Shown here piece after piece: positions 7,780 through 27,943 of a DNA stretch of 64,000 nt. The translations under genes and the position numbers were made by a program. The stretch spans positions 62,001 to 126,000 of the forward strand of contig NZ_ACVO01000017.1 of the NCBI RefSeq assembly GCF_000175615.1. The letters are read 5' to 3'. Positions within the stretch are counted from its first letter, which is position 1, and each line of letters opens with the position of its first letter. Source of the stretch: Rothia mucilaginosa ATCC 25296. GTDB taxonomy: Bacteria; Actinomycetota; Actinomycetes; Actinomycetales; Micrococcaceae. The notes beneath the pieces were generated by a model that searched no databases, was not told where the DNA came from, and worked only from the letters and a program-made list of their open reading frames with translations.

Positions 7780-7820
7780 GCCTTAATTGTGAGCTATGCC
7801 GCCCCTACGGGGCAAACGCA

Positions 7821-11683: not shown

Positions 11684-12240
11684 GGGTTCTCCTGAATCTG
11701 GGGTCTTCGCCTGCAGCGGTTGAGCTGGTGGAGGGCTGCTATGGATGGTCGGTATTGGGCGGTGCCGGTTGGGGGTGTCCGAGTGAATTTGCCTTTATTT
11801 CACGGTGCTTTATATGTGTTTTGGGTGTGTTTTATGCAGCTTTTCCATTGTAGGGCTAGTCTGCTTTTTCTGGCATTTTTCTCTGGTGTTCTTCTGCGAT
11901 GGAATATATTCCTTTTTGCACTTGATTGTCGCTTTCGTGGGTGATACTTGAGTATGGTTTTCTTCCGTGTCTGTTCCTGTGCCACAACGTTCATCGCATG
12001 GGGCGTAAATCACACACTCACGGGCATCTTTGCACTTTGTGCACCATTATTTTCACAGCTTCATCCTGTACCCTAATCATTAACGCTTACAGAAAAACCA
12101 GACAGTATATCCCCTTCCGGATTCTGTTTACCTCTTCCAACCAACCTCAGGTTTTCAGTATTTACTGCGGTTTTTCTAGTGCGCTAAATTCACCGTATCT
12201 TTCGATGTTTCTTCCGGAACGTCGCATCAGAAAGACGCAT
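11684..12240. other. 557-bp intergenic region, divergent mfd and first fibrinogen-like gene
   Basis: The region is AT-rich. A possible mfd promoter on the minus strand is TGCCAG-N17-TACAAT, with the -10 at 11847-11852. The frame of the downstream gene stays open back to 11926, but that extension has no ribosome-binding site or coding character. No RNA gene was recognised. Confidence 0.4.
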
Positions 12241-14607
12241 ATGACAACCACATACACGAACAAACCCGCTGAAAAGCGCCATGCCCGTTCATGGTCTGCT
12301 AAAAAGTGGGCCGCTTTCGCACTCGCTTTTGGTACCGCTTTCACTGCGGCACCTCTTACTCCTACTACTCCCGCCTCGGCTGCGACCGGAACCCATGACG
12401 GTTCCAGCAGCGATAAAGCAGCTGCTTCCTGTTACGAGGTCAAGCAGGTTAATCCTTCTGCCTCCTCTGGCACTTACTGGCTGTACACCCCGCAGATGAG
12501 CGGCCCGGCGCAGTTCTACTGCGATCAGGAAACTGATGGCGGCGGCTGGGTCATGATTGGTCGCGGTCGTGAGGGTTGGACCGAGTCTTACAACGGCACC
12601 GGCGACCCGAATCAACTGCACCAGAACCCCACCGGTCCTGCCGCTTTTACTCCGGTCCAGCTTCCCGCAAACACTGTCGATGCGCTGCTGAACGGCGTTA
12701 AGCCTCAGGACCTTCCCGACGGCATGCGCCTGCGCCGTGCTCACAATGCGAGGGGAACCCAGTGGCAGAACGTTTATGTTCAGCGTCCTCAGACTGAGCA
12801 GTGGACCTGGGCGATGAGCTACGGTCAGCGTTGGGGCACCGTGAAGTTCACCGGCGCCGGCATTAACCGCACCGCTCATATGGGCGGTTCCGCTTCGGAG
12901 ATGGCTCCGGGCATTACCACCAGCTCTGTTCGTTTCTTCGCGAACCCGAACCAGGGCTACCAGATTGGTTTTGCGTACGGTGCACTGGTGAACTTCGGTA
13001 ATGAGAATTCTGATTCGTATATTTACCACAAGCGCGGTTCCTTCGGTTACTCTATCCCCTTCACTCAGGTGTTCCTGCGCCCGAAGCTGACTCAGCGTGA
13101 CTTGAACTTCTCGCAGATTGGTTCTGGCTCTGCCGCCAGCAACCGTCGTGCTCTGCCCAATAGCTACACGATGCCCGTTCGTTGGCGCACCAGTGAACAG
13201 ACTGGCACCGGCAAGAAGAACGAGATGAACACTTACGTTCAGGCTATTACTCAGGTAGGCGACACCGTCTTCACCGGTGGCGACTTCAAGTATGTGGAGT
13301 CGGCTGGCGGCGAGCGCGTTGATCAGTCGTACCTGGCTGGTTACAACGTGGATTCGGGTGAGCTGGTTCGTTCCTTCCGCCCGACTTTCAACGGCCAGAT
13401 TAAGGCTCTTGAGGCTCTGCCGAATAACCGCCTGGCAGTTGGCGGCGAATTTACCGAGGTGAATGGCGAGAAGGTTAACCACTTCGTCATTCTGGACGCG
13501 ACCACCGGTCAGATTGACCGCACCTGGGACCTTCAGATTCAGCGTCGCAATGGCGATGCCGCACAGGTGAAGACTCTGCTGGTTCAGGACGGTTACCTGT
13601 ATATTGGCGGTAACTTCACCCACGTGAAGGGCAATACTTCTAAGGCGTACGCTTACTCGCGTGGTGCCGCTCGTATTAAGCTTTCGAACGGCGAGGTGGA
13701 TTGGAACTGGCGCCCGAACTTCAACGGTACGGTCAACGGCATTACTGCCGCCTCGGATAATTCCACTGTTCACGCTGCGGGTTACTTCACTGAGCTGAAT
13801 AACCAGCGTGCGTTCCGTCTGGCTGCTTTGAATGGTTCTAACGCTTCGAACATTAAGTGGGAGTGGGAGCCGTCGTTGAAGCTGAACATTACTGACCGTA
13901 TTGTGTACGCGTTCCAGTTCGATGTTCAGGATGCCGGCTCGACTGTGTGGACTGGCGGTGCTGACCACCTGATTGCGAACTACTCGAAGAATGGTTACGG
14001 CCGTATTTCTTCGTCGATTTCTAAGTACGGTGGCGACTGGCAGGATCTGCACTTGAGCGGTAACACCATTTACGGTGCATGCCACTGCGGTGACGTACTC
14101 TTCGAGGGCTCTACCGGTTACCACACCTACTGGAAGGAGTCGAAGGCAGTTCACCGTATGCGCCTGGTCGCAGCGTTCGATAAGGACAGCGGCGAGGTTA
14201 TCGGTGAGTTCAGCCCGGTTCTGAAGGGCGCTAGCGGCTACGGTGTCTGGGAGTCCTTCGTGGATTCTCGCGGCAATCTGTGGGTTGGTGGCGACATTAA
14301 CCGTTCGCTGGGTGCTAATGGTGAGCAGCGCACTGTCGGTTTCGCTCGCTTTGCTTCTCGCGATGTGACCGCCCCCTCGACTCCGTCGAACCTGTCGGTT
14401 CAGCGTGATGGTTCGACCGATAAGCTGTCCTGGTCTGGCGTTCGTGAGAGCGGTACTCGCTACCAGGTGCTACGTGATGACCGTGTGATTGCTACGGTCT
14501 CGGGTACCAGCTACGAAGTTGAGCACACCGATGGCGCTCGCTACTACGTGCGTTCCATCGATGCATCTGAGAATTTCTCAGCTTCTACAGGAGCTGCTCA
14601 GGCTTAG
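12241..14607 (+). CDS. Secreted fibrinogen-like/beta-propeller protein, paralogue 1
   Basis: The 788-residue protein has a basic N-terminus, a hydrophobic stretch and a PASA-A cleavage site near residue 48, so it should be secreted. The mature part carries a fibrinogen-like YCDxxxxGGGW domain (SCYEVKQ with Cys64, YCDQETDGGGWVMIGRG with Cys94, to about 310), a conserved linker (RRALPNS), then a beta-propeller of delta-60-like blades at about 335-680 (VFTGGDF, LAVGGEF, LYIGGNF, HAAGYF, LWVGGDI), and a C-terminal Fn3-like domain from about 690. Cys614 and Cys616 form a GACHCG motif in the propeller. There is no LPXTG or C-terminal anchor. Fibrinogen-like domains often bind sugars, so an adhesin or lectin role is inferred. 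The start is uncertain; 12205 is possible. Confidence 0.85.
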   Translation: MTTTYTNKPAEKRHARSWSAKKWAAFALAFGTAFTAAPLTPTTPASAATGTHDGSSSDKAAASCYEVKQVNPSASSGTYWLYTPQMSGPAQFYCDQETDGGGWVMIGRGREGWTESYNGTGDPNQLHQNPTGPAAFTPVQLPANTVDALLNGVKPQDLPDGMRLRRAHNARGTQWQNVYVQRPQTEQWTWAMSYGQRWGTVKFTGAGINRTAHMGGSASEMAPGITTSSVRFFANPNQGYQIGFAYGALVNFGNENSDSYIYHKRGSFGYSIPFTQVFLRPKLTQRDLNFSQIGSGSAASNRRALPNSYTMPVRWRTSEQTGTGKKNEMNTYVQAITQVGDTVFTGGDFKYVESAGGERVDQSYLAGYNVDSGELVRSFRPTFNGQIKALEALPNNRLAVGGEFTEVNGEKVNHFVILDATTGQIDRTWDLQIQRRNGDAAQVKTLLVQDGYLYIGGNFTHVKGNTSKAYAYSRGAARIKLSNGEVDWNWRPNFNGTVNGITAASDNSTVHAAGYFTELNNQRAFRLAALNGSNASNIKWEWEPSLKLNITDRIVYAFQFDVQDAGSTVWTGGADHLIANYSKNGYGRISSSISKYGGDWQDLHLSGNTIYGACHCGDVLFEGSTGYHTYWKESKAVHRMRLVAAFDKDSGEVIGEFSPVLKGASGYGVWESFVDSRGNLWVGGDINRSLGANGEQRTVGFARFASRDVTAPSTPSNLSVQRDGSTDKLSWSGVRESGTRYQVLRDDRVIATVSGTSYEVEHTDGARYYVRSIDASENFSASTGAAQA

Positions 14608-15135
14608 GTCAGGTTGTTGATCTAGTTTCTTTGAGCCGCCGCCTGATTTGGGCTCTGCTGGGTTTGCGGGGTTCGAATCAGGCGGTGGCGCACCCGGGGT
14701 GTATACCCCCTATAGTTTTGGTTTAGCCCAAGTTGCCCAGTTTGCTATCGCTTCGCCTCTGCGGCGGCTATGATGGGTTGGGATTCATTGCGTCGGATGG
14801 GTTGCTTCCATCCTTCCGATGATGGGCTGAATCTTGGTCTGTGGTGTTTTTTCACTGTTGGTACGACAGGGGAAGCTTCACAGATTTTTTAGCGTTCTGT
14901 TTCTTACGGGTGCGTTGCCGTTGTTGGCTTCGTGCGTGAGGGGCGGGGCGTATTCATTCAATTTCCGATAACTACACTCACTGATTCCGGCAGCAGACTC
15001 TCTGTTAGTGCAGTTCATAACGCTTCTTCCCTCCCCGATGCATGGTTACTATGCTGTGCCCTGTGTTGGGTGGGTGTTGCTGTGTGAATTGCATTTTTCT
15101 GTTGTGTACCGGTTGAGGTCTCTAGGAGAGACATA
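14608..15135. other. 528-bp intergenic region between fibrinogen-like genes 1 and 2
   Basis: It holds a hairpin (14635-14689), a small GGGGTGTATACCCCC palindrome-like element near 14696, a GGATGG/CCATCC stem (14797-14814), and the ribosome-binding site of the next gene. No ORF with coding character or RNA gene was seen. Confidence 0.5.
14635..14689 (+). terminator. Hairpin after fibrinogen-like gene 1
   Basis: A 14-bp stem (GCCGCCGCCTGATT with AATCAGGCGGTGGC, one G-U pair) spans a 27-nt loop. There is no U-tract. It lies 27 nt after the stop codon. Confidence 0.55.
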
Positions 15136-17604
15136 ATGAATTTTCTTCCGTTCGCGCGTGGAGGGCGTTCGCAGGGCGCTGCTTCGTCCGCTTCTGAGGG
15201 CCCTCGAGTAGCTTCTCGTGCTGGTTCCCGCGCTTTGGGTGCTGCGGCTGCTTCTTTTGCGATGGTTGCGGCTTCTTTGGGCCCGATTGCTTCGGGGGCT
15301 CAGGCTGCTGATGCTCGCTACTATGACGGTTCGTCGAGTGAGCGCGCAGCAGCAAGCTGTTGGGAAGTTAAGCAGAATAATCCGCGGGGTAAGAGCGGCG
15401 CGTACTGGCTGTACACCCCGCAGATGAGCACTCCTGAGCAGTTCTATTGTGATCAGGAAACTGACGGCGGCGGCTGGGTCATGATTGGCCGCGGTCGTGA
15501 GAGCTGGACCGAGAACTACAACGGTCGTGGCGATGCTAAGCAGCTTCACCAGAATCCCACTGGTTTTGATGCGGTGCAGTTGCCGGGCCAGACGGTGAAC
15601 GCGCTGCTGAACGGCACCCATCCGCAGGATTTGCCTGACGGCGTGCGTTTCCATCGCGCCATGAACGTGAATGGTACCGCATGGCAGGATTTTAAGGCTA
15701 CGCGTGCCGCGAGCACCGAGTGGTCTTGGACCCTTCGCTCAACGATGTACTGGTCGAACATTTCGATTACTCATCCGCGACAGTACCGTGGTTACAACTA
15801 CTACAGTCAAGAGAAGACGGCGGGCAATATCTTCCGTTACGGCTATTCGGACGATTTCCGTTCCCTGCACTTCGTGGAGAAGCCTTCGCAGGGTTATAAG
15901 CTGGGCTTTACCTATGGCTCGCGCGCTAAGATTACGGGTTGGTTCCAGGATTACCTGTTGAATAGGACTTCTTCCTATATCTACCGCCCGGCAAATGATT
16001 CGACCACCCCCCTGGTGTTCACTCAGATGTTCTTGCGCCCGAAGGTGACTCAGAACGATTTGGCGGCTAAGGGTCTGCACGCTTACGGCCAGCAGGGTGC
16101 TCCGGCAAGTAGCCGCCGTGCACTGCCCAATAGCTACTCTGAGAAGTGGAAGTGGCGTACGAGTACTGACACCGGTACCGGCAAGAAGGGTGAAATGAAC
16201 ACCCAGGTTGAGGCGATTACCGAGGTTGGTGGCGCTGTCTTTACCGGTGGCGATTTCGCGTACGTTGAGTCCGCAAGCGGCGAGAAGGTCGAGCAGGCCT
16301 TCCTCGCGGGTTACGAGGTAGGTACCGGCGAGCTACGCCGATCTTTCCGCCCGAAGATTAACGGTCAGGTGAAGTCGGTTGAGGCTCTGCCGAATGGCCT
16401 GCTTGCCGTGGGTGGTTCTTTCGACCAGGTGAACGGCGAGTACTATAACGGTTTCGTGCTTCTGGATCCGAAGACCGGTCAGGTGGCTAAGGACTGGGAT
16501 ATCCGTGTGGTCAGCCGTATTGCTTCTGTTCCGGTTCAGATTAAGACCCTGCACGTGCGTGACGGCTACCTGTACATTGGTGGTTCATTCACTCATTTGA
16601 AGGGTCAGACCTCCCCGACCTACGCGTACTCGAGGAACCTGGCTCGCATTAAGTTGAGCAATGGTGAGGTGGATTGGAACTGGCGTCCGGTCTTTAACGG
16701 CACTGTTAACGGTGTGAACGCTTCCGAGGGTAACAGCCACGTGTACGTGGCCGGCTACTTCACGCAGCTTAACGGTGGTGAGGCATTCCGTATCGCCAAC
16801 ATTACCAATCCCCGCCAGAGCGGCGGCGACTGGACACATGAGCCCTCGTACGTTCCTTCCAGTGCCCAGACCTGGGATTTGAAGAACGAGCGTAAGATGT
16901 GGGGTTTCCAGTTCGATGTTCAGGACGCTGGTTCCTCCGTCTGGCTGGGTGGCACCGAACATATGATTAGCCGTTACGAAAAGTCGAGCATGCGCCGCAC
17001 CTACAGCGCGATTACTCGCGAGGGTGGCGATTTCCAGGATCTGCACCTGAATGGCAATACCATTTACGGCGCGTGCCACTGCGGTGACTTCATCTACCAG
17101 GGTGCAACCAAGGTTGATTCGGAGTGGGTGAACGCTACGGACGCCCAGACGATTCGTTTGGTCGCAGCGTTCGATAAGGATACCGGCCAGGTGCTACCGG
17201 AGTGGGCTCCGATTATGAACGGCGCCTACGGCTATGGTGTGTGGGAGTCCTTCGTGGATTCGACCGGCACGCTGTGGGTTGGTGGCGATATCCGTAAGTC
17301 GCTGGGTGCTAATGGTGTGCAGCCGACTATTGGCTTCGCTCGTTATGCGCCTCGCGATGTGGCGCCTCCGGCTACTCCGAGCAATCTGAAGGTGACGAAG
17401 AACGGCTCCAAGGATCAGCTGACTTGGTCGGGTATTTCCGAACGTAATGTGAAGTACCAGATTCTGCGCGATGATCGTCCTATTGCGACGGTTACAGGTA
17501 CGAGCTATTCGGTAGATCACCGCGATGGCGCCCGTTATTATGTGCGCGCGGTAGATACTGCAGATAACTATTCGGCAAGCACCGAGGCTGTCCAGGCAGC
17601 GTAA
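15136..17604 (+). CDS. Secreted fibrinogen-like/beta-propeller protein, paralogue 2
   Basis: The 822-residue protein has the same plan as paralogue 1. A signal peptide ends near ASGAQA-A (residue 57). The fibrinogen-like domain has SCWEVKQ (Cys75) and YCDQETDGGGWVMIGRG (Cys105). Then come the RRALPNS linker, propeller blades (VFTGGDFAYVES, LLAVGGSF, LYIGGSFTHLKG, VYVAGYFTQLNGG, LWVGGDIRKSLG), the GACHCG motif (Cys647, Cys649) and an Fn3-like C-terminal domain from about 725. The mature chain has only these four cysteines. AGGAGAG lies 6 nt before the ATG. It has its own terminator, so each paralogue is probably a separate transcription unit. Molecular ligand unknown. Confidence 0.87.
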   Translation: MNFLPFARGGRSQGAASSASEGPRVASRAGSRALGAAAASFAMVAASLGPIASGAQAADARYYDGSSSERAAASCWEVKQNNPRGKSGAYWLYTPQMSTPEQFYCDQETDGGGWVMIGRGRESWTENYNGRGDAKQLHQNPTGFDAVQLPGQTVNALLNGTHPQDLPDGVRFHRAMNVNGTAWQDFKATRAASTEWSWTLRSTMYWSNISITHPRQYRGYNYYSQEKTAGNIFRYGYSDDFRSLHFVEKPSQGYKLGFTYGSRAKITGWFQDYLLNRTSSYIYRPANDSTTPLVFTQMFLRPKVTQNDLAAKGLHAYGQQGAPASSRRALPNSYSEKWKWRTSTDTGTGKKGEMNTQVEAITEVGGAVFTGGDFAYVESASGEKVEQAFLAGYEVGTGELRRSFRPKINGQVKSVEALPNGLLAVGGSFDQVNGEYYNGFVLLDPKTGQVAKDWDIRVVSRIASVPVQIKTLHVRDGYLYIGGSFTHLKGQTSPTYAYSRNLARIKLSNGEVDWNWRPVFNGTVNGVNASEGNSHVYVAGYFTQLNGGEAFRIANITNPRQSGGDWTHEPSYVPSSAQTWDLKNERKMWGFQFDVQDAGSSVWLGGTEHMISRYEKSSMRRTYSAITREGGDFQDLHLNGNTIYGACHCGDFIYQGATKVDSEWVNATDAQTIRLVAAFDKDTGQVLPEWAPIMNGAYGYGVWESFVDSTGTLWVGGDIRKSLGANGVQPTIGFARYAPRDVAPPATPSNLKVTKNGSKDQLTWSGISERNVKYQILRDDRPIATVTGTSYSVDHRDGARYYVRAVDTADNYSASTEAVQAA

Positions 17605-17948
17605 CACCTCATCAGGGCGATATGCACTTTTGTGACAAAGAATTTTAGTGATGTTCGCCCTATTATCCCGGGCTGGTTCATAACCAGCCCGGGACTTTTT
17701 TGCACATTGTGAATCTATTTCATTCATTTACATGAAGGTTTTTTCATTCAGAGATATATATTTACCTTCTATCCGACCCGAAATAGAGCATTATTTAGGG
17801 CCTATTCTCATCATTTATAAAAACGTTATTTTTGCGAATCCAAGTATTCTCCCAGCTTTGCGTGTTAGCCTTTAGGTGCTTTGTCATCGTGCAAGGTATT
17901 ATCTTCCGGAAATAGTCAATCTCACTCCAACCACTAAAGAGGCTTCCT
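17605..17948. other. 344-bp intergenic region before the lipoprotein gene
   Basis: Apart from the terminator at 17666-17701, this is an AT-rich stretch (17700-17880) that probably holds the lipoprotein promoter. No clear -35/-10 pair was found. An AGAGG ribosome-binding site precedes 17949. Confidence 0.45.
17666..17701 (+). terminator. Intrinsic terminator after fibrinogen-like gene 2
   Basis: A perfect 13-bp stem (TCCCGGGCTGGTT/AACCAGCCCGGGA) with a 3-nt loop is followed by CTTTTTT. Confidence 0.95.
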
Positions 17949-18809
17949 ATGTCAGCATTCTTCAAGCAGCCCTCCCGGTCCCGCCTTCTGGGCACCCTGG
18001 GCACCCTTGCAGTATCTGCTCTGGTTCTGAGCGCTTGCGCTACTGAAAACCCGAGCTCCGACAGCTCTTCTTCGGCTTCTGCATCCGCTAGCGTTTCCGC
18101 TTCTGCGCACGCTTCTTCCGCTCAGTCCTCGAGCACCTCTCCCCAGGTTTCCGAGCATGGCACCGCTGAAGCCTCCTCTGAAGCTTCGGGCGACGCATCC
18201 CCCAAGGCGGATGCTGAGGCTACTTCTTCTGATGGCCAGAAGCTTGAAGAGATTTACACTGGTTCGGAGGAAATGAAGAAGGCTTCTTCCGTGCCCGTGG
18301 ACACTGAAGAAGTTAAGAAAACCACCGAGCTGGTCAATTCCTACGAAAACATTCTGACCAAGATTAAGGCGGCTCCTTCTGCTGCGCCTTCCCCGGAACG
18401 CACCGCTGATCCAAGTAGCGACGAAGAGGCTGAGCAGCAGAACGTTGAGCAGGCCCGCGCTGTTCTCGATGATGAGACGATTCGTTCCATCGAGGCCGTA
18501 GCGGTAGACTCCGCTGCCGCTGAGTTTGCTGTGCAGGCTTCCGAATACGCACTGGCAGGCTGGCACTATGAAGGTTCTTCCACTGTAGTGGGTAACCCCC
18601 GTATGGCTGAAACTCAGTACAAGGGTCAGCCCGCACGCATGCTGGAAGTATGCATGGATTCTTCCTCCGTGAAGATCTATGACGAGAATAATCAGCCTGT
18701 AAAGGATGACAATTCTCCCAAGCGTTCACTCAATATCTACACCCTCGTTCAGGTCGATGGTCAGTGGAAGATTGCAACCCACGACTTCCCGAACAATCCT
18801 GATTGCTAG
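17949..18809 (+). CDS. Ser/Ala-rich secreted lipoprotein
   Basis: The 286-residue protein starts with a signal peptide ending in the lipobox LSAC, with Cys30 the expected lipidation site. It should be attached to the outer face of the membrane. Residues 31-95 form a Ser/Ala/Glu-rich low-complexity spacer. A second acidic, probably disordered part follows. The C-terminal 100 residues look folded (QASEYALAGWHYEGSSTVV, YTLVQVDGQWKIATHDF, two Cys), resembling lipoprotein domains seen widely in actinobacteria. AGAGG precedes the ATG. It lies between two fibrinogen-like paralogues, so a shared surface role is possible, but the function is unknown. Confidence 0.82.
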   Translation: MSAFFKQPSRSRLLGTLGTLAVSALVLSACATENPSSDSSSSASASASVSASAHASSAQSSSTSPQVSEHGTAEASSEASGDASPKADAEATSSDGQKLEEIYTGSEEMKKASSVPVDTEEVKKTTELVNSYENILTKIKAAPSAAPSPERTADPSSDEEAEQQNVEQARAVLDDETIRSIEAVAVDSAAAEFAVQASEYALAGWHYEGSSTVVGNPRMAETQYKGQPARMLEVCMDSSSVKIYDENNQPVKDDNSPKRSLNIYTLVQVDGQWKIATHDFPNNPDC

Positions 18810-18929
18810 GGTCTAATTAAAGATGCCGGTTTCCAGCTATGATTCTCTGGAAACCGCGCATTGTCGTCCATCGCGCATTAATGTTGATGCGCACTCGATA
18901 ACATTTCTTGGCATTCATTTGGAGATATT

Positions 18930-21900
18930 ATGAAAGCCCACCTTGGCATGACGGGCTCAGGCTTTTCTCGTTCTGCTATAACCCGCTCAACTCTTTGCTT
19001 GAGCATTGCTACGGCTTTGGCTTTGCCCGTAGCTATCCCCGCTATTACGCCGAGTACCGCTGTCGAACAGACTGCGGAAAAAAGGGACTCTGCTTTCTAC
19101 AATGGCACGACCTCCGAGCGTGCTGCCGCCAGCTGTTGGGAAGCCAAGCAGGCTAACCCCGAGGCAAAGAGCGGCGCATACTGGCTATACACCCCCGCAA
19201 TGAGCCAGCCGGCACAGTTCTACTGCGATCAGGAAACTGATGGCGGCGGCTGGCTCAAGATTGGTGAGGGTCGTGACGGCTGGACTGAAAACTACGAGGG
19301 TCAGGGCGATACGTCTCAGCTCTACAGCGATGCCGCACCCGCATCGTCCGGTTTGACGCTTGAGCAGGGTAAGGCTCTGAGCTCCCTGCCCGCAGCGAAG
19401 ACCCCGATTCAGCTTTCGGGTACCACTATTTCTCAGCTACTTAATGGTGTTCGTCCCGATCAGCTACCCGATGGTTACCGTTTCCGCCGTGCCCTGAACA
19501 CTTCGGGCACCAAGTGGCAGGAGGCGACGGTTGATCGCCGCCAGACCTCCGAGTGGACTTGGGCTCTGCGTTCGAGCGCTGTATGGTCGAACGCGACAGT
19601 CACCAACCCTGAGGAGTTCTCTTCTTACAATGAAAATGGCCGCAGGGACTGGCCTAACGGCACGTGGCAGGACCACATTCTGGGCGGTCAGAATAACGGC
19701 TTCAAGACGTTGAAGTTTGATGAGATGGCTTCCCAGGATTACCGTATGGGTTTCCGTTACGGTGCGAACGCCCCCATTTCACATGGCGGTTCTGAGCCGG
19801 AGATGACCGACGCGCAGAACTCTTACATTTACGGTAAGGACGGTAAGGGTGAAACCTCATTCGGTTATACCCAGATGTTCCTGCGCCCGAAGCTGACCCA
19901 GAACGATTTGCATCTGGGCGCTATCCCGGATTCCGGTACTCAGGCGAGCGCTCGTCGTGCCCTGCCCAGTAGCCGTTCGGCGGATTGGCGCTGGCGCACC
20001 AGTGCTAAGACCGCCTCCCGTAAAACCACCGAGATGAACACCTATGTTGAGGCCATCACCGAGGTCGATCACGGCAACGGCACCTCCAGCGTGTTTATTG
20101 GCGGCGACTTCGAGTACCTTGAGTCCTCTACCGGTGAGCATGTTGCGCAATCTAATATTGCTGCTTTTGACCCGGAAACCGGCGAGTTGCGCCGCGACTT
20201 CAAGCTGACTGTTAATGGTCAGGTGAAGGCTGTTGAGGCTCTGCCGAATAACCGTCTAGCGGTTGGTGGCGCCTTTACCCTGGTTAACGGTAAGAAGCAT
20301 GAGAGCTTCGTCGTTGTTGATGCCACGACTGGTGAAATTGCCCCTGAATGGGCCCAGGTTAGAGTCGAAGATCGTATTCTCACCGAGCCCATGATGGTGA
20401 AGACCATCCATCGTCAGGGTGACTACGTATACATTGGTGGCACCTTTACCCACGTTTATGAAAGTGAAAAGGCGGGTGCTGCGTATTCACGCAATATTGC
20501 CCGTTTTAAGTTGGGCGAACCTTCTAACGGCGTGCCCGGTATTGTGAGTATAGACCGTAACTGGCGCCAGGTGTTCAACGGTACTGTCAACGGTATTAGC
20601 GCCTCCGCTGATAACTCTCACGTTTACGTCGCCGGTTACTTCACCTGGCTCAACGGCGGTCTTGCCTACCGCGTGGCTGATATTACTCAGAACATGCAGA
20701 AGGGTAGTCCGTGGGTGTACCAGCACTCTGAGATTCCTACCGGCGCTAATGTCTCTGATCTGCGTAGCGAAACCAAGATTTGGGGTTTCCAGTTCGACGT
20801 TCAGGATGCCGGTACCGGCGTCTGGGTGGGTGGTACTGAGCACCTTATTTCTCGTTACGACAAGGCATCCCTGAGCCCCACCTACACTGCAATTACCCGT
20901 GATGGTGGAGATTTCCAGGATTTGCATCTGAACGGCAACACCATTTATGGTGCCTGCCACTGTGGTGACTTCCTCTACCAGGATTCGCGTAATAAGCCGT
21001 TCCCGGTGAGCGGTTCAAGCGTGATTCATTCGATCAAGCTGGTTGCTGCGTTCGATAAGGACAGCGGTAAGATGCTGCCGGAGTTCTCCCCCGCTATTAA
21101 GGGTGACCACGGCTTCGGTATCTGGGAGTCTTTCGTTGATTCTAAGGGCACTCTGTGGGTTGGTGGCGATATCCACCGTTCGCTGGGTGTTCACGGCACT
21201 CAGGATACCGTTGGTTTTGCGCGCTTTGAGGCTCGCGATGTGACTCCTCCGGCTACCCCGCAGAACCTGAAGGTAGAGCTGAAGGACGATAAGGACGTTC
21301 TGACCTGGGACGCTGTGCAGGATACCGATAGTGTCCGCTACCAGATTCTGCGTGATGACCGAGTCATCGCTAGTACTTCGGGTACGAAGTTCGAGATTGA
21401 CCACACCGATAACGCACGTTACTTTGTACGCGCTGCGGACAGCTCGGATAACTACTCTGCCTCCACTCCGGTTCAGGTAGCTCCGGTTCGCCCGACTCCT
21501 ACCCCCACGGAGACCGCGACCGAGACTCCTACCGCTGATCCGACCGCGAGCGCTGACCCGACGGCAAGTGCTGATCCGACCGCTACTGCTGACCCCAGTG
21601 CTTCGGCAAGCGCTACCCCGAGTGCAGAAGCAACTACTGAGGCGCCGAAGGCCCAGGATCCGGACCCGAAGCCTGAGGAGCCCAAGCCCGAGGACCCGAA
21701 GGAAGAGAATCCTAAGGACGAGGCCGCTAAGGACCAGATTGTTCTGCCCTACGCGTCCGAGTGGAAGTACATGGTCTCCAGTCAGGCTCCTAACCGTAAG
21801 TACGGTTGGAAGTACAACTTCCACTTCACCTTGGAAGATATCGCGCAGGAAGCATGGCAGACCGGCAAGACCCCGATTGGTGTCGGCACCGGTAACCTCA

Positions 21901-22394
21901 ACACCTCCGTTCATGTTCCGCTCATGCGTAACCGCCAAAATATCTACGCCTACACCACCATCCAGCTCACTCGTGAGCAGGCGAGCCGCGACCTGGTGCT
22001 GACCACCTACGCAGATGACGCTATTGCGGTGGGTGTCAACGGTGAAGAGGTTGGCCGTTCCAACTTCAACATCAGGGGCAAACTGTGGAATAGCGCGGTT
22101 GCATCGAGCTCGATTGATACCGCTAAGGCTCAGAAGACTCCGGTGACCTTCACCGTTCCGGCGTCCAAGCTGAAGGTTGGCGAGAACCTCATCGCAGTTG
22201 AGGTTCACCCGGGCATTAGTCGACGTAACGTTCGCCCGAATGTAAGCTTCGACCTGCAGGCAACTGCTAAGGCGCCGGTTGCTGAGCAGCCCATGGTCGA
22301 TAACGCGAACAACGCGGCAGCCGACCGGGGCGAGCGACGCATCGTCAATAACGGAGTCGGAACCCGCGTTCCGATGCAGGCTCGAAGGAACTAA
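18930..22394 (+). CDS. Secreted fibrinogen-like/beta-propeller protein, paralogue 3, with extended C-terminus
   Basis: At 1154 residues this is the longest paralogue. After a signal peptide (hydrophobic to about residue 44) come the fibrinogen-like domain (SCWEAKQ, Cys69; YCDQETDGGGWLKIGEG, Cys99) with an extra insert near 130-155, the RRALPSS linker, the propeller with GACHCG (Cys676, Cys678) and LWVGGDIHRSLG, and the Fn3-like domain. Unique parts follow: a Thr/Pro/Ala linker with DPTASA-type repeats (about 850-905), an acidic Pro/Lys/Glu stretch (905-935), and a beta-rich domain (about 935-1115: LTTYADDAIAVGVNGEEVG, VGENLIAVEVHPG) resembling galactose-binding-like folds. There is no LPXTG. 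GGAG precedes the ATG. A surface or matrix role is inferred. Confidence 0.86.
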   Translation: MKAHLGMTGSGFSRSAITRSTLCLSIATALALPVAIPAITPSTAVEQTAEKRDSAFYNGTTSERAAASCWEAKQANPEAKSGAYWLYTPAMSQPAQFYCDQETDGGGWLKIGEGRDGWTENYEGQGDTSQLYSDAAPASSGLTLEQGKALSSLPAAKTPIQLSGTTISQLLNGVRPDQLPDGYRFRRALNTSGTKWQEATVDRRQTSEWTWALRSSAVWSNATVTNPEEFSSYNENGRRDWPNGTWQDHILGGQNNGFKTLKFDEMASQDYRMGFRYGANAPISHGGSEPEMTDAQNSYIYGKDGKGETSFGYTQMFLRPKLTQNDLHLGAIPDSGTQASARRALPSSRSADWRWRTSAKTASRKTTEMNTYVEAITEVDHGNGTSSVFIGGDFEYLESSTGEHVAQSNIAAFDPETGELRRDFKLTVNGQVKAVEALPNNRLAVGGAFTLVNGKKHESFVVVDATTGEIAPEWAQVRVEDRILTEPMMVKTIHRQGDYVYIGGTFTHVYESEKAGAAYSRNIARFKLGEPSNGVPGIVSIDRNWRQVFNGTVNGISASADNSHVYVAGYFTWLNGGLAYRVADITQNMQKGSPWVYQHSEIPTGANVSDLRSETKIWGFQFDVQDAGTGVWVGGTEHLISRYDKASLSPTYTAITRDGGDFQDLHLNGNTIYGACHCGDFLYQDSRNKPFPVSGSSVIHSIKLVAAFDKDSGKMLPEFSPAIKGDHGFGIWESFVDSKGTLWVGGDIHRSLGVHGTQDTVGFARFEARDVTPPATPQNLKVELKDDKDVLTWDAVQDTDSVRYQILRDDRVIASTSGTKFEIDHTDNARYFVRAADSSDNYSASTPVQVAPVRPTPTPTETATETPTADPTASADPTASADPTATADPSASASATPSAEATTEAPKAQDPDPKPEEPKPEDPKEENPKDEAAKDQIVLPYASEWKYMVSSQAPNRKYGWKYNFHFTLEDIAQEAWQTGKTPIGVGTGNLNTSVHVPLMRNRQNIYAYTTIQLTREQASRDLVLTTYADDAIAVGVNGEEVGRSNFNIRGKLWNSAVASSSIDTAKAQKTPVTFTVPASKLKVGENLIAVEVHPGISRRNVRPNVSFDLQATAKAPVAEQPMVDNANNAAADRGERRIVNNGVGTRVPMQARRN
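21505..21612 (+). repeat. Degenerate tandem repeat coding the DPTASA linker
   Basis: Within paralogue 3 an 18-bp unit (about GCTGACCCGACGGCAAGT) recurs with silent and conservative changes, giving alternating TADPTAS, ADPTAS and ADPTAT units. It codes a flexible stalk between the Fn3-like domain and the C-terminal domain and may vary in copy number between strains. Confidence 0.6.
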
Positions 22395-22870
22395 TACCTT
22401 CTAGACAATCTCAGCTAAATGGGGTTTGATTTTCTGAATGATTCAGGAAATCAAACCCCATTTGCGTGTGCTACCCGTTTTTCTGTGTTTTTTGCATCAT
22501 TTATTCCTGTTATTTGTGTTTCTGTTATGTGTATCTCAGCACAATGTTCAGATATGAATTCTAAAACCATAATTCACAGGATGAAGGCGTCGATACCCCC
22601 GGTTTGTTAGGCTCCTACCCTGCTCGCAGAAACCCGCCAATCTGCACTATAGAGCATTGTCAGCGGCTTTTTGCGACACAATTGTTGACCCTGACCACAC
22701 GCCCCCTGTCGCACTTTATCTCGTTGTAAAATATCTATATAGTGGTGTATGTGAAAAAGGGACCAACCACCTCTTTTTTCGCGTGCGGGACTTCCGGACT
22801 TTCTCGCAGCCGCCCCGAAAGGGAGTAATTCACTCTCCTTCACTCCTCTCACCGATTAAAAGGAATGTGC
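22395..22870. other. 476-bp intergenic region before the polysaccharide cluster
   Basis: After the terminator the sequence is AT-rich. TTGACC (22684) and TATAGT (22738) occur but are not at promoter spacing to each other, so the cluster promoter could not be placed. No ORF with coding character or RNA gene was seen. Confidence 0.4.
22418..22465 (+). terminator. Intrinsic terminator after fibrinogen-like gene 3
   Basis: A long stem, AAATGGGGTTTGATTT paired with GAAATCAAACCCCATTT plus inner CTGAAT/ATTCAG, starts 23 nt after the stop. Confidence 0.85.
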
Positions 22871-23659
22871 ATGTCCACCTCTGAGGCACCTCACACCCCA
22901 AACTCCGCGCCCGCATCGGGATTTTCTGCGAAGTTTTCTCACACCCTGCGCTCTCTTGAAGCAGCGCAGAAGCCTGGCATTGGCGTTCCCGCCTACACCC
23001 GCTGGGTCAACCGCCGAGTAGCACGCTACTTCGCTGCGGCAGCTGTCGCACTGGGCATCACCCCCAACGGCGTCACCGCTATTTCCGCCGCATGTTCCGC
23101 AGCAGGCCTCGTCGTTCTGATTACGTGCCCGCCCAGCGTTGGTGTAGGTATCTGCGTTGCACTACTCTTCGCCCTCGGTTACGGCCTGGACTCTGCTGAC
23201 GGTCAGGTTGCTCGCGTGACCGGTGCGTCCTCCCCCGCCGGTGAGTGGCTCGACCATGTGGTCGATTCCATCCGTGTGCCCTCGGTGCACATGGCAACTC
23301 TGCTCTCTTTCCTGCTGTACCCGGCACACTATTCCTTCACCGGCTCTAGCACTTTCAACGGCTGGATCATTGCGATGCCCATGATTTTCACCGCTCTGAC
23401 CGCCGGTCACTTCATGAGCCAGATTCTGGCTGAACAGCTGCGCAACAACCGCAAGACCGCAGCACCGCCCACCGGTGGCCCCCTGCGCTCCTTCATCAAC
23501 CTGCACATGGACGCTGGCACCCTCTGCTGGATTTACATTTTTGTTGGCTTCGGCCCCGTATTCGTCATCGTCTACGCGCTGCTTCTGCTGGCTAATGCCG
23601 CAACCGTCCTGCTGTCCATGCGTCGCAAGTACGTTAGCCTCGCGACCCCCGCTGAGTAA
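22871..23659 (+). CDS. CDP-alcohol phosphatidyltransferase family membrane protein
   Basis: The 262-residue integral membrane enzyme has the family signature DSADGQVAR...GEWLDHVVD (DxxDGxxARx8GxxxDxxxD), whose Asp residues bind the metal ion and CDP group. It would move a phospho-alcohol or phosphatidyl group between a CDP-linked donor and an alcohol. The ATG at 22871 is preferred over 22865 because AAAAGGA (22858-22864) then has proper spacing. It is followed 11 nt later by a GT2 gene and is the first gene of the cluster. Its place in a polysaccharide locus rather than beside phospholipid genes suggests a role in glycan-lipid or phosphoglycan synthesis. Substrates are unknown. Confidence 0.84.
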   Translation: MSTSEAPHTPNSAPASGFSAKFSHTLRSLEAAQKPGIGVPAYTRWVNRRVARYFAAAAVALGITPNGVTAISAACSAAGLVVLITCPPSVGVGICVALLFALGYGLDSADGQVARVTGASSPAGEWLDHVVDSIRVPSVHMATLLSFLLYPAHYSFTGSSTFNGWIIAMPMIFTALTAGHFMSQILAEQLRNNRKTAAPPTGGPLRSFINLHMDAGTLCWIYIFVGFGPVFVIVYALLLLANAATVLLSMRRKYVSLATPAE

Positions 23660-23670: not shown

Positions 23671-24621
23671 ATGATGCACTTCACCTCTCGCAACCCTGCT
23701 GTTTCCGCCGTTATCGCGACCAACGGCAAGCGCCCCGAGCTGCTGCGCGTGGCTGTCCGCTCTATCCTTGAGCAGAGCTACCGCGGTTTCGTTGAAGTTG
23801 TTGTCGTCTTTGACCGTGTTGAGCCCGACCGCCTCGAGGATATTGAGGTCGGCGAAAACCGTGCCCTGAAGATTGTCTCCAATACCCGTTCCGGCGGTCT
23901 GGCTGGCGGCCGCAATAGCGGCATCATCGCCTCCAGTGGTGAGATGATTGGCTTCTGCGATGATGACGACTACTGGATGCCTTCCAAGCTCACCCAGCAG
24001 GTTGCTCTCTGGCGCGAAAACCCCGAAGCAGCCGCTATCTCTTCGGGTATTACCGTGCGTTCCGGCGGTCAGGACATCGTGCGCCTGGCGCCCGAGCGCG
24101 CGACCTTCGCTGACTTCCTGCGTTCGCGCATTACCGAAATTCACCCCTCCGCAATGCTGTACTCCCGCGAGGATCTGCTCGGCGTTGACGGTCAGCCCGC
24201 CCGCATCGGTCTGGTCGATGAGGAGTTGCCCGCCGCCTACGGTGAAGACTACGACCTGCTGCTACGCGCAACCCGCCACGGCGATGTGCTGAGCGTGCCC
24301 GAGCCGCTGATTCTGGTGCTCTGGGACCGTCCTTCCTTCTTCTCTGGCAAGTGGCAGTCCATGGTTGACGGTCTGAGCTACATTCTGCGTAAGTTCCCCG
24401 AATTTGAGCAGGACCCCAAGGGCCTGGCACGTATTGCCGGTCAGATTGCGTACGCTCAGGCGTCTTTGGGCAACAACAAGGAGGCGCGCGCGTACGCTCG
24501 CTCCGCTCTGCGCCGTGACCCCAAGCAGCTTCGTGCTTGGGCAGCATACGTTGTATCCACCGGCATTATTAAGCCCGCTACGCTTCTTGATCTCGTCCAG
24601 AAGACCGGTCGAGGTCTCTAA
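23671..24621 (+). CDS. Glycosyltransferase family 2
   Basis: The 316-residue cytoplasmic GT-A enzyme starts with the nucleotide-binding strand AVIATNGKRPELLRVAVRS and has the metal-binding acidic motif GFCDDDDYWMPSKL. It should move one sugar from a nucleotide donor to a lipid-linked glycan. A short helical C-terminal part (YAQASLGNNKEARAYARSAL) looks like a TPR-type repeat. AAGGAGAA precedes the ATG. It sits between the CDP-alcohol phosphatidyltransferase and a Wzy-like gene and is probably co-transcribed with both. Sugar unknown. Confidence 0.88.
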   Translation: MMHFTSRNPAVSAVIATNGKRPELLRVAVRSILEQSYRGFVEVVVVFDRVEPDRLEDIEVGENRALKIVSNTRSGGLAGGRNSGIIASSGEMIGFCDDDDYWMPSKLTQQVALWRENPEAAAISSGITVRSGGQDIVRLAPERATFADFLRSRITEIHPSAMLYSREDLLGVDGQPARIGLVDEELPAAYGEDYDLLLRATRHGDVLSVPEPLILVLWDRPSFFSGKWQSMVDGLSYILRKFPEFEQDPKGLARIAGQIAYAQASLGNNKEARAYARSALRRDPKQLRAWAAYVVSTGIIKPATLLDLVQKTGRGL

Positions 24622-24638: not shown

Positions 24639-25994
24639 ATGGTTTCCTCTTCCGTTCTTTCTCATCCGGGTGCTTCGCCTGTTGCGCTGAAGGATTCCGC
24701 AGGGTCGGCTAGTACGCCGCCCAGCGGTATTCTGCGTGCCCGCGCGCGCATCCGTCCGATGTCGACAGCGCAGAAGAAGCTCCCCGCATGGCCTCTGCTG
24801 GCGTTGCTGTATGGCTTCCCGGCGCTGTGGGCTCTGGGGCTGCTTCAGATTGCGCCGCTGGTACTGGCAGCGATCATGCTTTTTTACCTCATCATTCGAG
24901 GTAATGTGCGTGTGCCCGGTTCCCTGTGGGTGTGGGGCGCATTCTGCGTATGGGTTGTTGTTGCGGCACTTGCTCTGACCCGTTCCACCGACATGATTGG
25001 TTGGGGTCTGCGCTTTGTGAACATTCTCAGCGCCGGCATTTACGCCCTGTACTACTACAACGCGCGCTCCTCTATTAGCCTCAACAGGTTGTTGGGTGGT
25101 CTGGCGACTCTGTGGGTGACCCTCATTGTGCTGGGTTATGGCGGCGTTCTCTTCCCCGAGTTCCGTCTGCGTACCCCGATGAGCTTCATCATGCCTTCTG
25201 GTTTCATGCAGAACCCGCTGGTGCGTGACTATATGCTTCCTCCTCTGGCGGAGGTTCAGCGCCCGTGGGGTGCACCTGAGGCGTATATTCGCCCCTCCGC
25301 ACCGTTCCCCTACGCGAATAGTTGGGGTCTGGCGTACACCCTGCTCACCCCGGTGATGCTGGCGTGCCTGTTGCGTCTGCGTTCCATCTGGCTGCGCGTT
25401 GCGTTGCTCATCGGTATGGCTCTTTCTACTGTTCCGGCAATTGCGACTAGTAACCGCGGCATGTTTATTGGTCTGGGTATTAGCGCAGCATATGTTTTGC
25501 TGCGTCAGTTCCTGGCAGCTAATTGGCGTGCTGTAGGCATGGGTGTTGCAGCGATTGCGGCTGTCATCGTGGCACTTTTCGCTTCGGGTACTGTGGACAA
25601 TATTCTGGGCCGTCAGGATTACTCTGACTCGACCGGCGGTCGTGCGGCGCTCTACCGTGCTACCTGGAATGCGACCTTGGAGTCCCCGATTATCGGTTAT
25701 GGCACTCCGCGCATGGAACCGAGCATTGGTGTGTCGATGGGTACCCAGGGTTACCTGTGGACTTTGATGTTCTGCTTCGGTTTCGTAGGTCTGGCACTAT
25801 TCGCACTCTTCATGGTGTGCACTGTGGCAAGCGGCGCACGAGTGAAGACCGCCTCCGGGTACTGGTTGCATAGTGTGCCGGTGGCGTGCTGCGTTGTCTT
25901 TATTTTCTACAGCTTCGATATTGCTCAGCTGACGATTCTGATGCTCGCTTCGATGGCGTGCATGCGTTCCATTCGGGATGGTGAGGGGCTATGA
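24639..25994 (+). CDS. O-antigen ligase/polymerase-like (Wzy/WaaL) membrane protein
   Basis: The 451-residue polytopic protein has about 10-12 hydrophobic segments after a polar N-terminus of about 45 residues. The large periplasmic-type loop and the segment with ATSNRGMFIGLGISAAYV and DYSDSTGGRAALYRATW resemble the Wzy_C/O-antigen ligase family, in which a conserved Arg contacts the lipid-linked donor. It would polymerise or ligate repeat units on the outer membrane face. The last codons overlap the next gene by 4 nt (ATGA), so the two are translationally coupled. The ribosome-binding site is weak. Confidence 0.82.
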   Translation: MVSSSVLSHPGASPVALKDSAGSASTPPSGILRARARIRPMSTAQKKLPAWPLLALLYGFPALWALGLLQIAPLVLAAIMLFYLIIRGNVRVPGSLWVWGAFCVWVVVAALALTRSTDMIGWGLRFVNILSAGIYALYYYNARSSISLNRLLGGLATLWVTLIVLGYGGVLFPEFRLRTPMSFIMPSGFMQNPLVRDYMLPPLAEVQRPWGAPEAYIRPSAPFPYANSWGLAYTLLTPVMLACLLRLRSIWLRVALLIGMALSTVPAIATSNRGMFIGLGISAAYVLLRQFLAANWRAVGMGVAAIAAVIVALFASGTVDNILGRQDYSDSTGGRAALYRATWNATLESPIIGYGTPRMEPSIGVSMGTQGYLWTLMFCFGFVGLALFALFMVCTVASGARVKTASGYWLHSVPVACCVVFIFYSFDIAQLTILMLASMACMRSIRDGEGL

Positions 25995-27943
25995 CGAAGG
26001 ATCAGTCCCCTCGTGGTTTAGATACCGCTTCGGTTTCGTCTTTTGATGATGCGTATTCGATGGGTGGTCATCCTAGCCGTCGTGCGCGTCTGCGTGAGAG
26101 CGGCGAGTATGTGGATCCGGTAGTGGAACAGTCTGATTCTCAGGCAGAGTCTTCTGCTGATGAGTTTGCTCCCACGGTGGATGACATCCGTTCCGGTCGT
26201 TTTCCTGCGACCACGGCGCTGTCGATTGTGCCTCCCGCTCAGGGCTTTGCTCCTGAGAAGTCGCTCTCCGATTCTTTGGAAGCGAGTTCTTCGGGTACTT
26301 CGACTGCTGGTTCTTCGGAGGCAAGCTCTGCCACTGTGGTGGGCGCTCATCTGCCCGGTTCTCGCAGGACGGCATCAGCTACTGTTGAGTCTGCCGATTC
26401 GAAGGCACAGACCGATAGCGCCTCAGCGAAGGATGCTCCAGCGAAGAAGGCTCCTACGAAGGGTAAGCAGCCCAGCCTCGCGAAGAGCGGTTCTCTCGCT
26501 TCTCTGTGCGTGATGTACGGTGCCGGTATCGCGTTCGTGACCACGATGGTGGTGTCGAATGGTATTGGTGCTGAGGGTTCGGGCGAGTTTTTCCGTCTGA
26601 TGGCGTTGTTCGCGATTGCGATTTCGCTGGTGACCTTCGGCGCGGATACGGGTCTAGTTCGTACGATGAGCGCTCAGCGTGCGCTGGGTCGTTACGGCGT
26701 GTTGCCGCAGCTGATTCAGTACGGTCTGATTCCTTCGCTGGTGACTTCGGTGCTTCTGGTGGCGGGTGTGTACATCTACACCGAGGTTGTGCCGATGGCT
26801 CCTGAATATCAGTCGGCTATGCGCGTCAGTTCGGCTTTCGTTCTGGTTGCGGCGCTGATGACGGTGTTCTTCGGTGCTCTGCGTGGCCTGCACCGTGTGG
26901 TGACTTTTACGGTTCTGCAGAATGTTCTGCTTCCTACTCTGCGTTTTGCGGCTGTGGGTTTGGTGGTTCTGTTCTCGGGTCAGCTCATGGAGCTGGTGTA
27001 CGCCTGGACTATTCCGGTGGCAATTACTGCGGTGGTTGCTCTGTGGCTTTTGGAGCGGGCGTTCCCCAACGAGGAGCATGTGGAGGTTCTTCCTTCTGAG
27101 GATTCTCCGACTGAGACGTTCCGTTCGTTCTGGGGTTTCAGCTCTGCACGCGGTGTCGCTACCGTTGTGGAGACGATCCTGGAGTGGATTGACGTGCTGG
27201 TCGTGACGGCGTTCTTGGGCGCCGCTGCCGGTGGTATCTATGGTGCTGTGAACCGTTGTGTTCGTGTGGGCACCATGATTGAGCACACTGGTCGTGTGGT
27301 GACTGGCCCGTCGATTAGTGCGGCGTTGGCGACCCGTCAGCTGGACCGTGCTCGAGAGATTTTCTTATCGACCACTCGTGTATTGACTGCTCTGTCGTGG
27401 CCGTTCTACCTCTCCCTGGCGTTCTTTGGTCCCGTGCTGTTGCATTTCTTCGGTAAGGGCTTTGAGGCTGGCGCCGGTATCCTCTGGGTGATTTGCCCGG
27501 CGGCGATGCTGTCGATGAGTGCCGGTGGCGTGCAGTCTGTTCTGCTGATGAGCGGTAAGAGCCGCTGGCAGCTGTTGAACAAGCTCTCCTCGCTGGTGGT
27601 GGCTGTGACTTTGAACTTCACGCTGGTTCCGGTTTGGGGCCTGTACGGTGCAGTGACGGCGTGGGCATCGGCTCTGCTGATTGATACCTTCCTGGCGAGC
27701 TACCAGGTATTCCGTTTGGTGGGTATTCGCGCTTCGGTCCGTGAGATGGCTCCTTCGCTCTTCTTGGGCGCAGCTGTTCCGACGGCGTGTGCTCTAGCGT
27801 CTTTGGCCGTTTTGGGTCAGAGCGTGCTGGGTGTCATCGTGTACGTGGTGCTGCTGGTGCCGGTGTACGGTGCGGTGCTGTTCCGCTTCCGCAAGGCACT
27901 CGGCATTGAGCGTTTCCTTTCCGCCCGCCGAGCGAAGTCTTAG
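25991..27943 (+). CDS. Wzx-like polysaccharide flippase with long N-terminal extension
   Basis: The 650-residue protein has two parts. Residues 1-170 are polar, Ser/Ala/Asp-rich and probably disordered, ending in a Lys-rich patch (KKAPTKGKQPSLAK). From about 172 it is a 12-14 TM MATE/MOP-fold protein like Wzx or MurJ (FGADTGLVRTMSAQRALGR, GVATVVETILEWIDVL). It would flip lipid-linked repeat units across the membrane. The start overlaps the Wzy-like gene by 4 nt. The extension is not a normal feature of Wzx and may be a regulatory or docking segment; phosphorylation is possible but not shown. Confidence 0.86.
   Translation: MTKDQSPRGLDTASVSSFDDAYSMGGHPSRRARLRESGEYVDPVVEQSDSQAESSADEFAPTVDDIRSGRFPATTALSIVPPAQGFAPEKSLSDSLEASSSGTSTAGSSEASSATVVGAHLPGSRRTASATVESADSKAQTDSASAKDAPAKKAPTKGKQPSLAKSGSLASLCVMYGAGIAFVTTMVVSNGIGAEGSGEFFRLMALFAIAISLVTFGADTGLVRTMSAQRALGRYGVLPQLIQYGLIPSLVTSVLLVAGVYIYTEVVPMAPEYQSAMRVSSAFVLVAALMTVFFGALRGLHRVVTFTVLQNVLLPTLRFAAVGLVVLFSGQLMELVYAWTIPVAITAVVALWLLERAFPNEEHVEVLPSEDSPTETFRSFWGFSSARGVATVVETILEWIDVLVVTAFLGAAAGGIYGAVNRCVRVGTMIEHTGRVVTGPSISAALATRQLDRAREIFLSTTRVLTALSWPFYLSLAFFGPVLLHFFGKGFEAGAGILWVICPAAMLSMSAGGVQSVLLMSGKSRWQLLNKLSSLVVAVTLNFTLVPVWGLYGAVTAWASALLIDTFLASYQVFRLVGIRASVREMAPSLFLGAAVPTACALASLAVLGQSVLGVIVYVVLLVPVYGAVLFRFRKALGIERFLSARRAKS

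Follow-up and report, generated by a model that had tools for sequence, protein, structure and literature searches.

For fibrinogen-like domains, points of comparison come from animals. Intelectins (X-type lectins) carry a Ca2+-bound pocket for exocyclic 1,2-diols and recognize such diols, e.g., glycerol phosphate, and animal fibrinogen-related domains (FReDs) feature a second disulfide and a C-terminal P-subdomain motif. On the bacterial side, NCBIfam NF040941, for fibrinogen-like proteins with a YCDxxxxGGGW domain, is a 46-residue domain label with no stated function; for the making of surface polysaccharides, the systems to compare are the Wzx/Wzy capsule and exopolysaccharide loci. Here we analyze three genes, FREP1, FREP2, and FREP3, in a stretch of 64,000 nucleotides (the window) from Rothia mucilaginosa ATCC 25296 (contig NZ_ACVO01000017.1, positions 62,001 to 126,000), each coding for a predicted secreted protein in which a fibrinogen-like domain is joined to a predicted beta-propeller.

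The locus compares with these systems in different ways. With the intelectins the FREPs share an N-terminal stretch of sequence, but the FREP domain is bacterial and fused to a propeller. For ficolins and tachylectin 5A, to which the first-pass annotation had likened the domain, the fold fits, but Foldseek template-modeling scores (TM-scores) lie below 0.5 and the intelectins are nearer in sequence; since the FREP domain has only two cysteines and the latter half of the Fibrinogen_C model (PF00147) finds no match in it, the acetyl-sugar and sialic-acid binding of those lectins cannot be carried over. All three FREPs match NF040941 (66, 68.5, and 65.4 bits, E 3.6e-19 to 3.5e-18, cut-off 30 bits), a label that a few Rothia homologues bear in source records and that is silent on the propeller, the C-terminal domain, and the cluster. 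With Wzx/Wzy loci the window shares Wzx, Wzy, Wzz, a family 2 glycosyltransferase (GT2), and PssD/PssE, but it adds the fibrinogen/propeller protein, a predicted lipoprotein (LIPO), a cytidine diphosphate (CDP)-alcohol phosphotransferase (the CDP enzyme), and, often among relatives, a TagD-like gene. A search of the open literature, with subscription journals and preprints outside its scope, found no description of this system and nothing on a fibrinogen-like domain with YCDxxxxGGGW; what it returned for fibrinogen-like domains together with actinobacteria concerned chicken gut, and for DUF5122 it returned PMC8078820. In the parts available, a paper bearing on CDP-alcohol phosphatidyltransferases, Wzy, and actinobacteria has no mention of fibrinogen and nothing on this cluster (PMC12419801), and those on the R. 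mucilaginosa genome (PMC3667864) and on R. nasimurium (PMC11950441) do not touch these genes.

The analysis indicates that the FREPs recur, in many actinobacterial genera and several families, as members of a cluster predicted to make polysaccharide. Judging by this gene company, we give a little better than an even chance to the idea that they are extracellular parts of an actinobacterial Wzx/Wzy system which bind the cluster's own polymer, probably one bearing a phospho-alcohol, and retain it at the cell surface.

Linkage to a predicted polysaccharide-making cluster

A scan of genome contigs with two short peptide patterns, which is not exhaustive, gave 56 loci, comprising 29 of Rothia type (Micrococcaceae bacterium UBA7136, L019, included) and 27 others. 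Relatives occur in seven families, Micrococcaceae, Microbacteriaceae, Nocardioidaceae, Pseudonocardiaceae, Dermatophilaceae, Propionibacteriaceae, and Cellulomonadaceae, with genera that include Arthrobacter, Glutamicibacter, Cryobacterium, Aeromicrobium, and Amycolatopsis, and the best segments in other genera are 35-43% identical. The earlier suggestion that the set might be specific to its lineage thus falls, and with it a lineage-specific adhesin family, which we reject because relatives occur in other families. A quick tree of 72 rows (Shimodaira-Hasegawa-like approximate likelihood ratio test [SH-aLRT] only, midpoint root; rows L021, L044_9218, and L049, without the motif, kept from their own start) places the Rothia proteins in one group (support 100) containing FREP1, FREP2, and FREP3. 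Copies have apparently also been duplicated in R. amarae, in L013, and in Amnibacterium (L036), Aeromicrobium (L030), and Nocardioides (L044). At the last of these, from Nocardioides albus, four fibrinogen/propeller genes, two per strand, lie within about 12 kb (2782-15061). In Auraticoccus (L049, 10001-13341) the fibrinogen-like part and the propeller open reading frame (ORF) are in different frames, which is a frameshift or a sequencing error.

The neighbors that recur, a set also brought out by clustering the genes around the protein, are LIPO, the CDP enzyme, GT2, Wzy, Wzx, Wzz, PssD/PssE, and, often, the TagD-like gene. Early ORF calls were crude and missed genes in GC-rich loci, and counts were taken instead from tblastn with the window's genes as queries (E 1e-4). 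By this measure the 27 non-Rothia loci have GT2 in 23, Wzy and Wzx in 22 each, the CDP enzyme in 21, LIPO in 16, PssE-like and PssD-like genes in 15 each, and Wzz in 14. LIPO, whose family has two invariant C-terminal cysteines and recurs next to fibrinogen/propeller proteins, is found in 22 of the 29 Rothia-type loci; for each of the seven without it (L002, L006, L007, L018, L021, L046, and L048), the other locus of the same genome, as matched by record title, has LIPO. Beyond Rothia a lipobox is often absent by our pattern, so the term lipoprotein is valid for the window and most Rothia rows only.

Since these loci had been found through the protein itself, 197 genomes were drawn evenly from the class and searched with profiles. 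Eleven have a full-length FREP match (one, G001, being the center of the draw). Wzy lies no farther than about 20 kb from this match in all 11, Wzx and GT2 in 10 each, PssD and PssE in 9 each, the CDP enzyme in 8, and LIPO and Wzz in 5 each. In 20 arbitrary 19.5-kb stretches of the same genomes, which we chose and placed by round numbers, there was no Wzy, Wzx, CDP enzyme, or LIPO, and GT2 occurred once; another set (L068-L086), at 2.5-5 kb, was too short and was dropped as a neighbor control. The FREPs go with the surface-glycan genes noted alongside them at first pass (Wzy 11/11 versus 0/20). By profile search, LIPO (E<1e-20) is found in 6 of the 197 genomes, all within the 11 with FREP; we treat the weak matches in 93 more (best E 5e-9 to 1e-3) as chance hits. 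Wzy is found in 39, and the ten top scores all belong to FREP genomes, the eleventh (G035) ranking twelfth, behind G060; this Wzy is recognizable across families, with 32-68% identity to the window's copy among 12 relatives. The CDP enzyme (E<1e-60, a bar that excludes 44 further genomes at E 5e-19 to 1e-10) is found in 21, 8 of them with FREP. Each of the three profiles contains a row, L024, that lies in G001; without G001, 10 of 10 FREP genomes have Wzy, against 1.9 expected.

As to the polymer, the nearest named models for the CDP enzyme are archaetidylinositol phosphate synthase and phosphatidylinositol phosphate (PIP) synthase, and for the TagD-like protein glycerol-3-phosphate cytidylyltransferase (E 1.3e-19), in both cases under cut-off. 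Of the 29 Rothia-type loci 13 have the TagD-like gene, as do 14 of the 27 others; in the draw it is present at 7 of the 11 loci with FREP, at 9 of 13 with the CDP enzyme only, and in 0 of 20 controls. Because of the CDP enzyme and this recurrent gene, a phospho-alcohol is likely in the polymer or its lipid carrier.

A divergent fibrinogen-like domain on a propeller

The N-terminal signature YCDxxxxGGGW and the first Cys pair of a FReD are present in FREP1-3, and the fibrinogen-like domain is found in 57 alignment rows and, at the DNA level, additionally in L049 and L056. PF00147 matches 50 of the 57 members at E<=0.01. The window copies match the Pfam models Fibrinogen_C, Rax2, and DUF5122 weakly, with most scores either reaching the cut-off or falling slightly short of it, and the PF00147 match ends at model position 55 of 221. 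The domain has exactly two cysteines in 57 of 57 rows, and neither the second disulfide nor the P-subdomain motif of animal FReDs was found in these rows or in the PF00147 alignment. AlphaFold models (predicted local distance difference test [pLDDT] 91), structure prediction being one of the checks proposed at first pass, give both a fibrinogen-like fold over the whole domain and a closed propeller of four-stranded blades. Taken by these features, the fibrinogen-like domain of the FREPs is a divergent FReD. The nearest solved sequences to its profile are intelectins (XEEL and intelectin-1; E 1.4e-9, 3.7e-8, and 5.1e-8), in an alignment that spans SCxExK...GxYxLxT...CDxxTxGGGW and only the first 46-77 profile positions.

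The propeller weakly matches two family models. Rax2, named for a fungal landmark protein, is above cut-off in one of the three window copies and matched in 10 of 25 relatives; DUF5122 (delta-60), a family without assigned function, is matched in 15 of the 25. At the C-termini of these relatives, Pfam reports a carbohydrate-binding module (CBM)-like match (PF14683) in five, beta-galactosidase ABD2 in two, and a galactose-binding domain in two.

Between the window copies, similarity is lowest in the C-half of the fibrinogen-like domain (40-42%), the signal peptide aside. The ratio of nonsynonymous to synonymous substitution rates (dN/dS; method of Nei and Gojobori, NG86), taken for window copies against L001 and L022 in four pairs, is 0.016-0.33 in every domain, i.e., purifying, as a rough measure with synonymous sites near saturation in some pairs. 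The word divergent, used of these genes at first pass, thus describes the copies but not the selection on them, and positive selection on the fibrinogen-like domain is rejected, as dN/dS is <=0.33 throughout. The C-half exceeds the propeller in three of the four pairs (FREP1, 0.096 and 0.016; FREP2, 0.115 and 0.071; FREP3-L001, 0.161 and 0.127), and in FREP3-L022 it lies below (0.123 and 0.156). This difference neither demands nor excludes an adhesin. Some database proteins look like mosaics. P0031, one row in alignments A1 and A5 (62 rows), has a fibrinogen-like half 98-100% identical to P0044, in whose length class the proteins with source names are R. dentocariosa, and a propeller 92-100% identical to FREP1; P0042 has a FREP1-like N-terminus and a FREP2-like body, both cases being seen in sliding windows. 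P0032, P0033, and P0043 have a mosaic look by domain comparison only. All five, on one contig each, may be assembly chimeras; hence domain shuffling between alleles was set aside, and nothing is built on them.

Genes of the window

That three paralogues stand on one strand with the same order of parts (signal peptide, fibrinogen-like domain, propeller, Fn3-like domain), as first annotated, is borne out by the coordinates (Table 1), by NF040941, and by the models. Two features went unmentioned at first pass: the LIPO gene between FREP2 and FREP3 and the jelly-roll-like C-terminus of FREP3, the latter with a CBM-like PF14683 match under cut-off.

Table 1. Positions of the FREP genes, their parts, and the neighboring cluster genes in the window
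Feature	Position	Strand	Remarks
FREP1	12241..14607	+	788 aa, predicted secreted; no C-terminal jelly-roll
FREP1 fibrinogen-like domain	~12418-13110	+	
FREP1 propeller	~13168-14370	+	Seven blades, by our count
Cys-His-Cys motif of FREP1 propeller	14080..14088	+	C614-H615-C616; invariant in 62 aligned rows
FREP1 Fn3-like domain	~14371-14604	+	
FREP2	15136..17604	+	822 aa, parts as FREP1
FREP2 fibrinogen-like region	15304-16140	+	Including linker
Terminator-like hairpin with T-run	17666..17694	+	3' of FREP2; 13 pairs
LIPO	17949..18809	+	Predicted lipoprotein, lipobox LSAC
FREP3	18930..22394	+	1154 aa, full architecture
FREP3 fibrinogen-like region	19071-19979	+	Including linker; propeller then to ~21242
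FREP3 C-terminus, jelly-roll-like	~21675-22259	+	After Fn3-like domain and Pro/Thr/Ala-rich linker
CDP-alcohol phosphotransferase	22865..23659	+	PF01066
GT2 glycosyltransferase	23671..24621	+	
Wzy-type polymerase	24639..25994	+	PF04932, which also covers O-antigen ligases; above cut-off
Wzx-type flippase	25991..27943	+	PF01943, above cut-off
Wzz-type chain-length protein	28010..29242	+	PF02706, above cut-off
PssD/Cps14F (Alg14-like) glycosyltransferase subunit	29449..29931	+	NF041549 at cut-off, 110 bits
PssE/Cps14G (Alg13-like) glycosyltransferase subunit	30210..30920	+	Under NCBIfam cut-off
TagD-like cytidylyltransferase	31836..32333	-	PF01467; recurrent cluster member

The closest protein matches to FREP1 are 92-99% identical, with P0023 of R. 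mucilaginosa at 97%, and the same three genes are present in R. mucilaginosa 141_RMUC (L001). Each gene had been credited with its own terminator, but a clear one is found for FREP2 only, and the hairpin total across the region is not above that of shuffles. A long inverted repeat 3' of FREP3 (22419-22465), seen by eye and absent from the terminator-scan list, lies ahead of the CDP-alcohol gene and may act as a terminator in both directions. No initiating phosphoglycosyltransferase turned up among the genes covered by domain scans of the window. Directly 3' of the PssE-like gene lies a DUF2505 protein (31169-31666), for which tblastn gives a match at 18 of the 29 Rothia-type loci but at 0 of the 27 others.

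The window has a second glycan region (36189-58875), which likely makes a nonulosonic-acid glycan, judging from its predicted genes. These comprise RmlB/RmlA-like genes (38981-40914), several GT1/GT2 genes, and a gene whose product has an AAA_31 domain and matches Wzz weakly (41011-42483). The region also encodes a NeuB-family synthase (50541-52784) that carries CBS, SAF, and xylose-isomerase-like domains as fusion partners, together with a PseF-like cytidylyltransferase (52875-53882) and an ABC exporter of MsbA/PglK type (56977-58875). Among the glycosyltransferase genes stands a small PqqD-domain protein (43450-43758; PF05402, E 8e-7); PqqD domains are usually the peptide-binding part of systems for ribosomally synthesized and posttranslationally modified peptides (RiPPs).

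Possible roles of the FREPs

If the FREPs do hold the cluster's own polymer at the surface, a lipid-linked repeat unit would be assembled by cytosolic glycosyltransferases, with the phospho-alcohol, as decoration or lipid head, coming from the CDP-alcohol phosphotransferase and the TagD-like enzyme; Wzx would flip the unit, and Wzy/Wzz would polymerize it outside. Membrane-anchored LIPO would stand beside the exit, and FREP3, with a candidate glycan-binding domain at either end (fibrinogen-like and jelly-roll) and the propeller as scaffold between, would take up the chain, retaining and cross-linking it at the wall. FREP1 and FREP2 would be shortened duplicates with altered fibrinogen-like C-halves, perhaps serving the same polymer where its position or its modification differs. 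LPxTG/A is found in the last 60 residues of 0 of 72 ORFs, and this lack of an LPXTG-type sortase signal fits retention through sugar binding. In a more specific form of the proposal, the fibrinogen-like domain would read a phospho-alcohol mark (glycerol- or inositol-phosphate-like) set on the polymer by the TagD-like and CDP enzymes, and the propeller Cys-His-Cys would fix the chain to the wall, making this a distinct actinobacterial Wzx/Wzy branch in which an intelectin-like lectin on a propeller would carry out the final step outside the cell. Self-reading is attractive as an idea, since intelectins recognize glycerol-phosphate-like diols, but we consider this form unlikely.

Several observations weigh against polymer retention. 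The binding of the cluster's own polymer is read from gene neighborhood; the fibrinogen-like fold match is loose, by the Foldseek scores given above; and a domain without the second Cys pair may bind something other than sugar. Three non-Rothia loci (L033, L041, which is near a contig end, and L043) have no cluster gene, and a fourth (L042) has LIPO only. Six Rothia-type genomes (L006, L007, L018, L021, L046, and L048) have an extra copy off the cluster; these belong to R. nasimurium-type genomes and R. amarae, with L006, L007, L018, and L048 in one tight clade. The FREP genes of the window stand 120-530 bases from their neighbors and FREP2 has a terminator, so they need not share a transcript with the genes for biosynthesis. 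Because FREP loci supplied the rows of the LIPO, CDP, and Wzy profiles, these are biased towards FREP genomes, and the Fisher values for co-occurrence ignore kinship.

The first-pass annotation saw the set as secreted lectins or adhesins. Secreted and probably sugar-binding is still the best reading, but adhesion is no longer favored, because in unrelated genera, too, the FREPs accompany a polysaccharide-making cluster. As lectin-like adhesins for host mucus or the glycans of partner bacteria, which we think improbable, they would share with the polysaccharide genes only a joint surface expression; consistent with this are the three divergent copies with their dissimilar C-halves, the faster C-half in three of four pairs, and the fact that animal relatives of the fold bind glycans. 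Yet the same proteins, with mostly the same neighbors, are found in Arthrobacter and the other genera listed with it above, among others, and those named are not host-bound as a rule; moreover, every domain is under constraint, the propeller is not the slower part in FREP3-L022, and the sortase anchor is missing. Alternatively, the FREPs could be enzymes in which the invariant His/Asp/Gln and Cys-His-Cys of the propeller would form a metal or catalytic site for trimming, modifying, or wall-ligating the polymer and the fibrinogen-like domain would bind the substrate. C614-H615-C616, H576, D599, Q601, W670, and W681 are invariant in 62 aligned rows; C-x-C is absent from all eight FReD-less propeller ORFs examined near a CDP enzyme (loci L093 and L104 left aside), so that among the propellers examined Cys-His-Cys is confined to the fibrinogen-like branch; and no LytR-CpsA-Psr type ligase turned up among the genes covered by the domain scans. 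However, neither Pfam nor NCBIfam places a named enzyme family over the propeller, its fold matches are mainly scaffolding propellers (from a list derived from the Protein Data Bank [PDB] that covers mainly one domain), the invariant cysteines could form a structural disulfide, and the Wzy family name itself includes ligases. An enzyme is thus a rather unlikely role in our estimate.

The draw also bears on a role in which the propeller protein is a general partner of this Wzy family, in polymerization or export, while one branch carries the fibrinogen-like domain as an extra that it could do without. Any delta-60-type propeller is found in 36 of the 197 genomes and Wzy in 39, with both in 28 against 7.1 expected; with the FREP genomes removed, FReD-less propellers are found in 25, Wzy in 28, and both in 17 against 3.8 expected, where FReD-less propellers are likely undercounted because four candidates per genome were scored. 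The two lie 2-15 kb apart in 6 of the 17 (G019, G030, G051, G101, G132, and G152), and a different, FReD-less propeller gene is nearby at 8 of the 13 CDP-enzyme loci that lack FREP. But 9 of the 17 genomes have the two on separate contigs, and 2 have them a long way from each other (37 kb and 2.1 Mb); FReD-less propellers are 24-33% identical over parts only, with different C-termini, and a fibrinogen-like domain is present in the 57 rows and in the DNA of L049 and L056. A general partner with a dispensable domain is accordingly very unlikely in our view, although the wider unit may pair a propeller protein with the Wzy or CDP-enzyme family seen here, the fibrinogen-like form being one branch of it.

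Retention of the polymer by the FREPs is thus the reading we carry forward. It bears on how Wzy-made polymers stay on the cells of actinobacteria that lack an outer membrane, and self-polymer retention by FREPs, if true, would be a so far unrecognized step in building such coats. It would give one Wzy family a recurrent secreted partner with two candidate sugar-binding ends, tied to a named gene and domain, and would turn the function-less bacterial "fibrinogen-like" label into a testable prediction on the glycan recognized. It would also be relevant to how the fibrinogen-related and intelectin lectins of animals evolved. Were the phospho-alcohol mark itself what is read, a bacterial fibrinogen-like lectin would be an attachment factor for the cell's own polysaccharide, the mirror of animal intelectins reading microbial marks.

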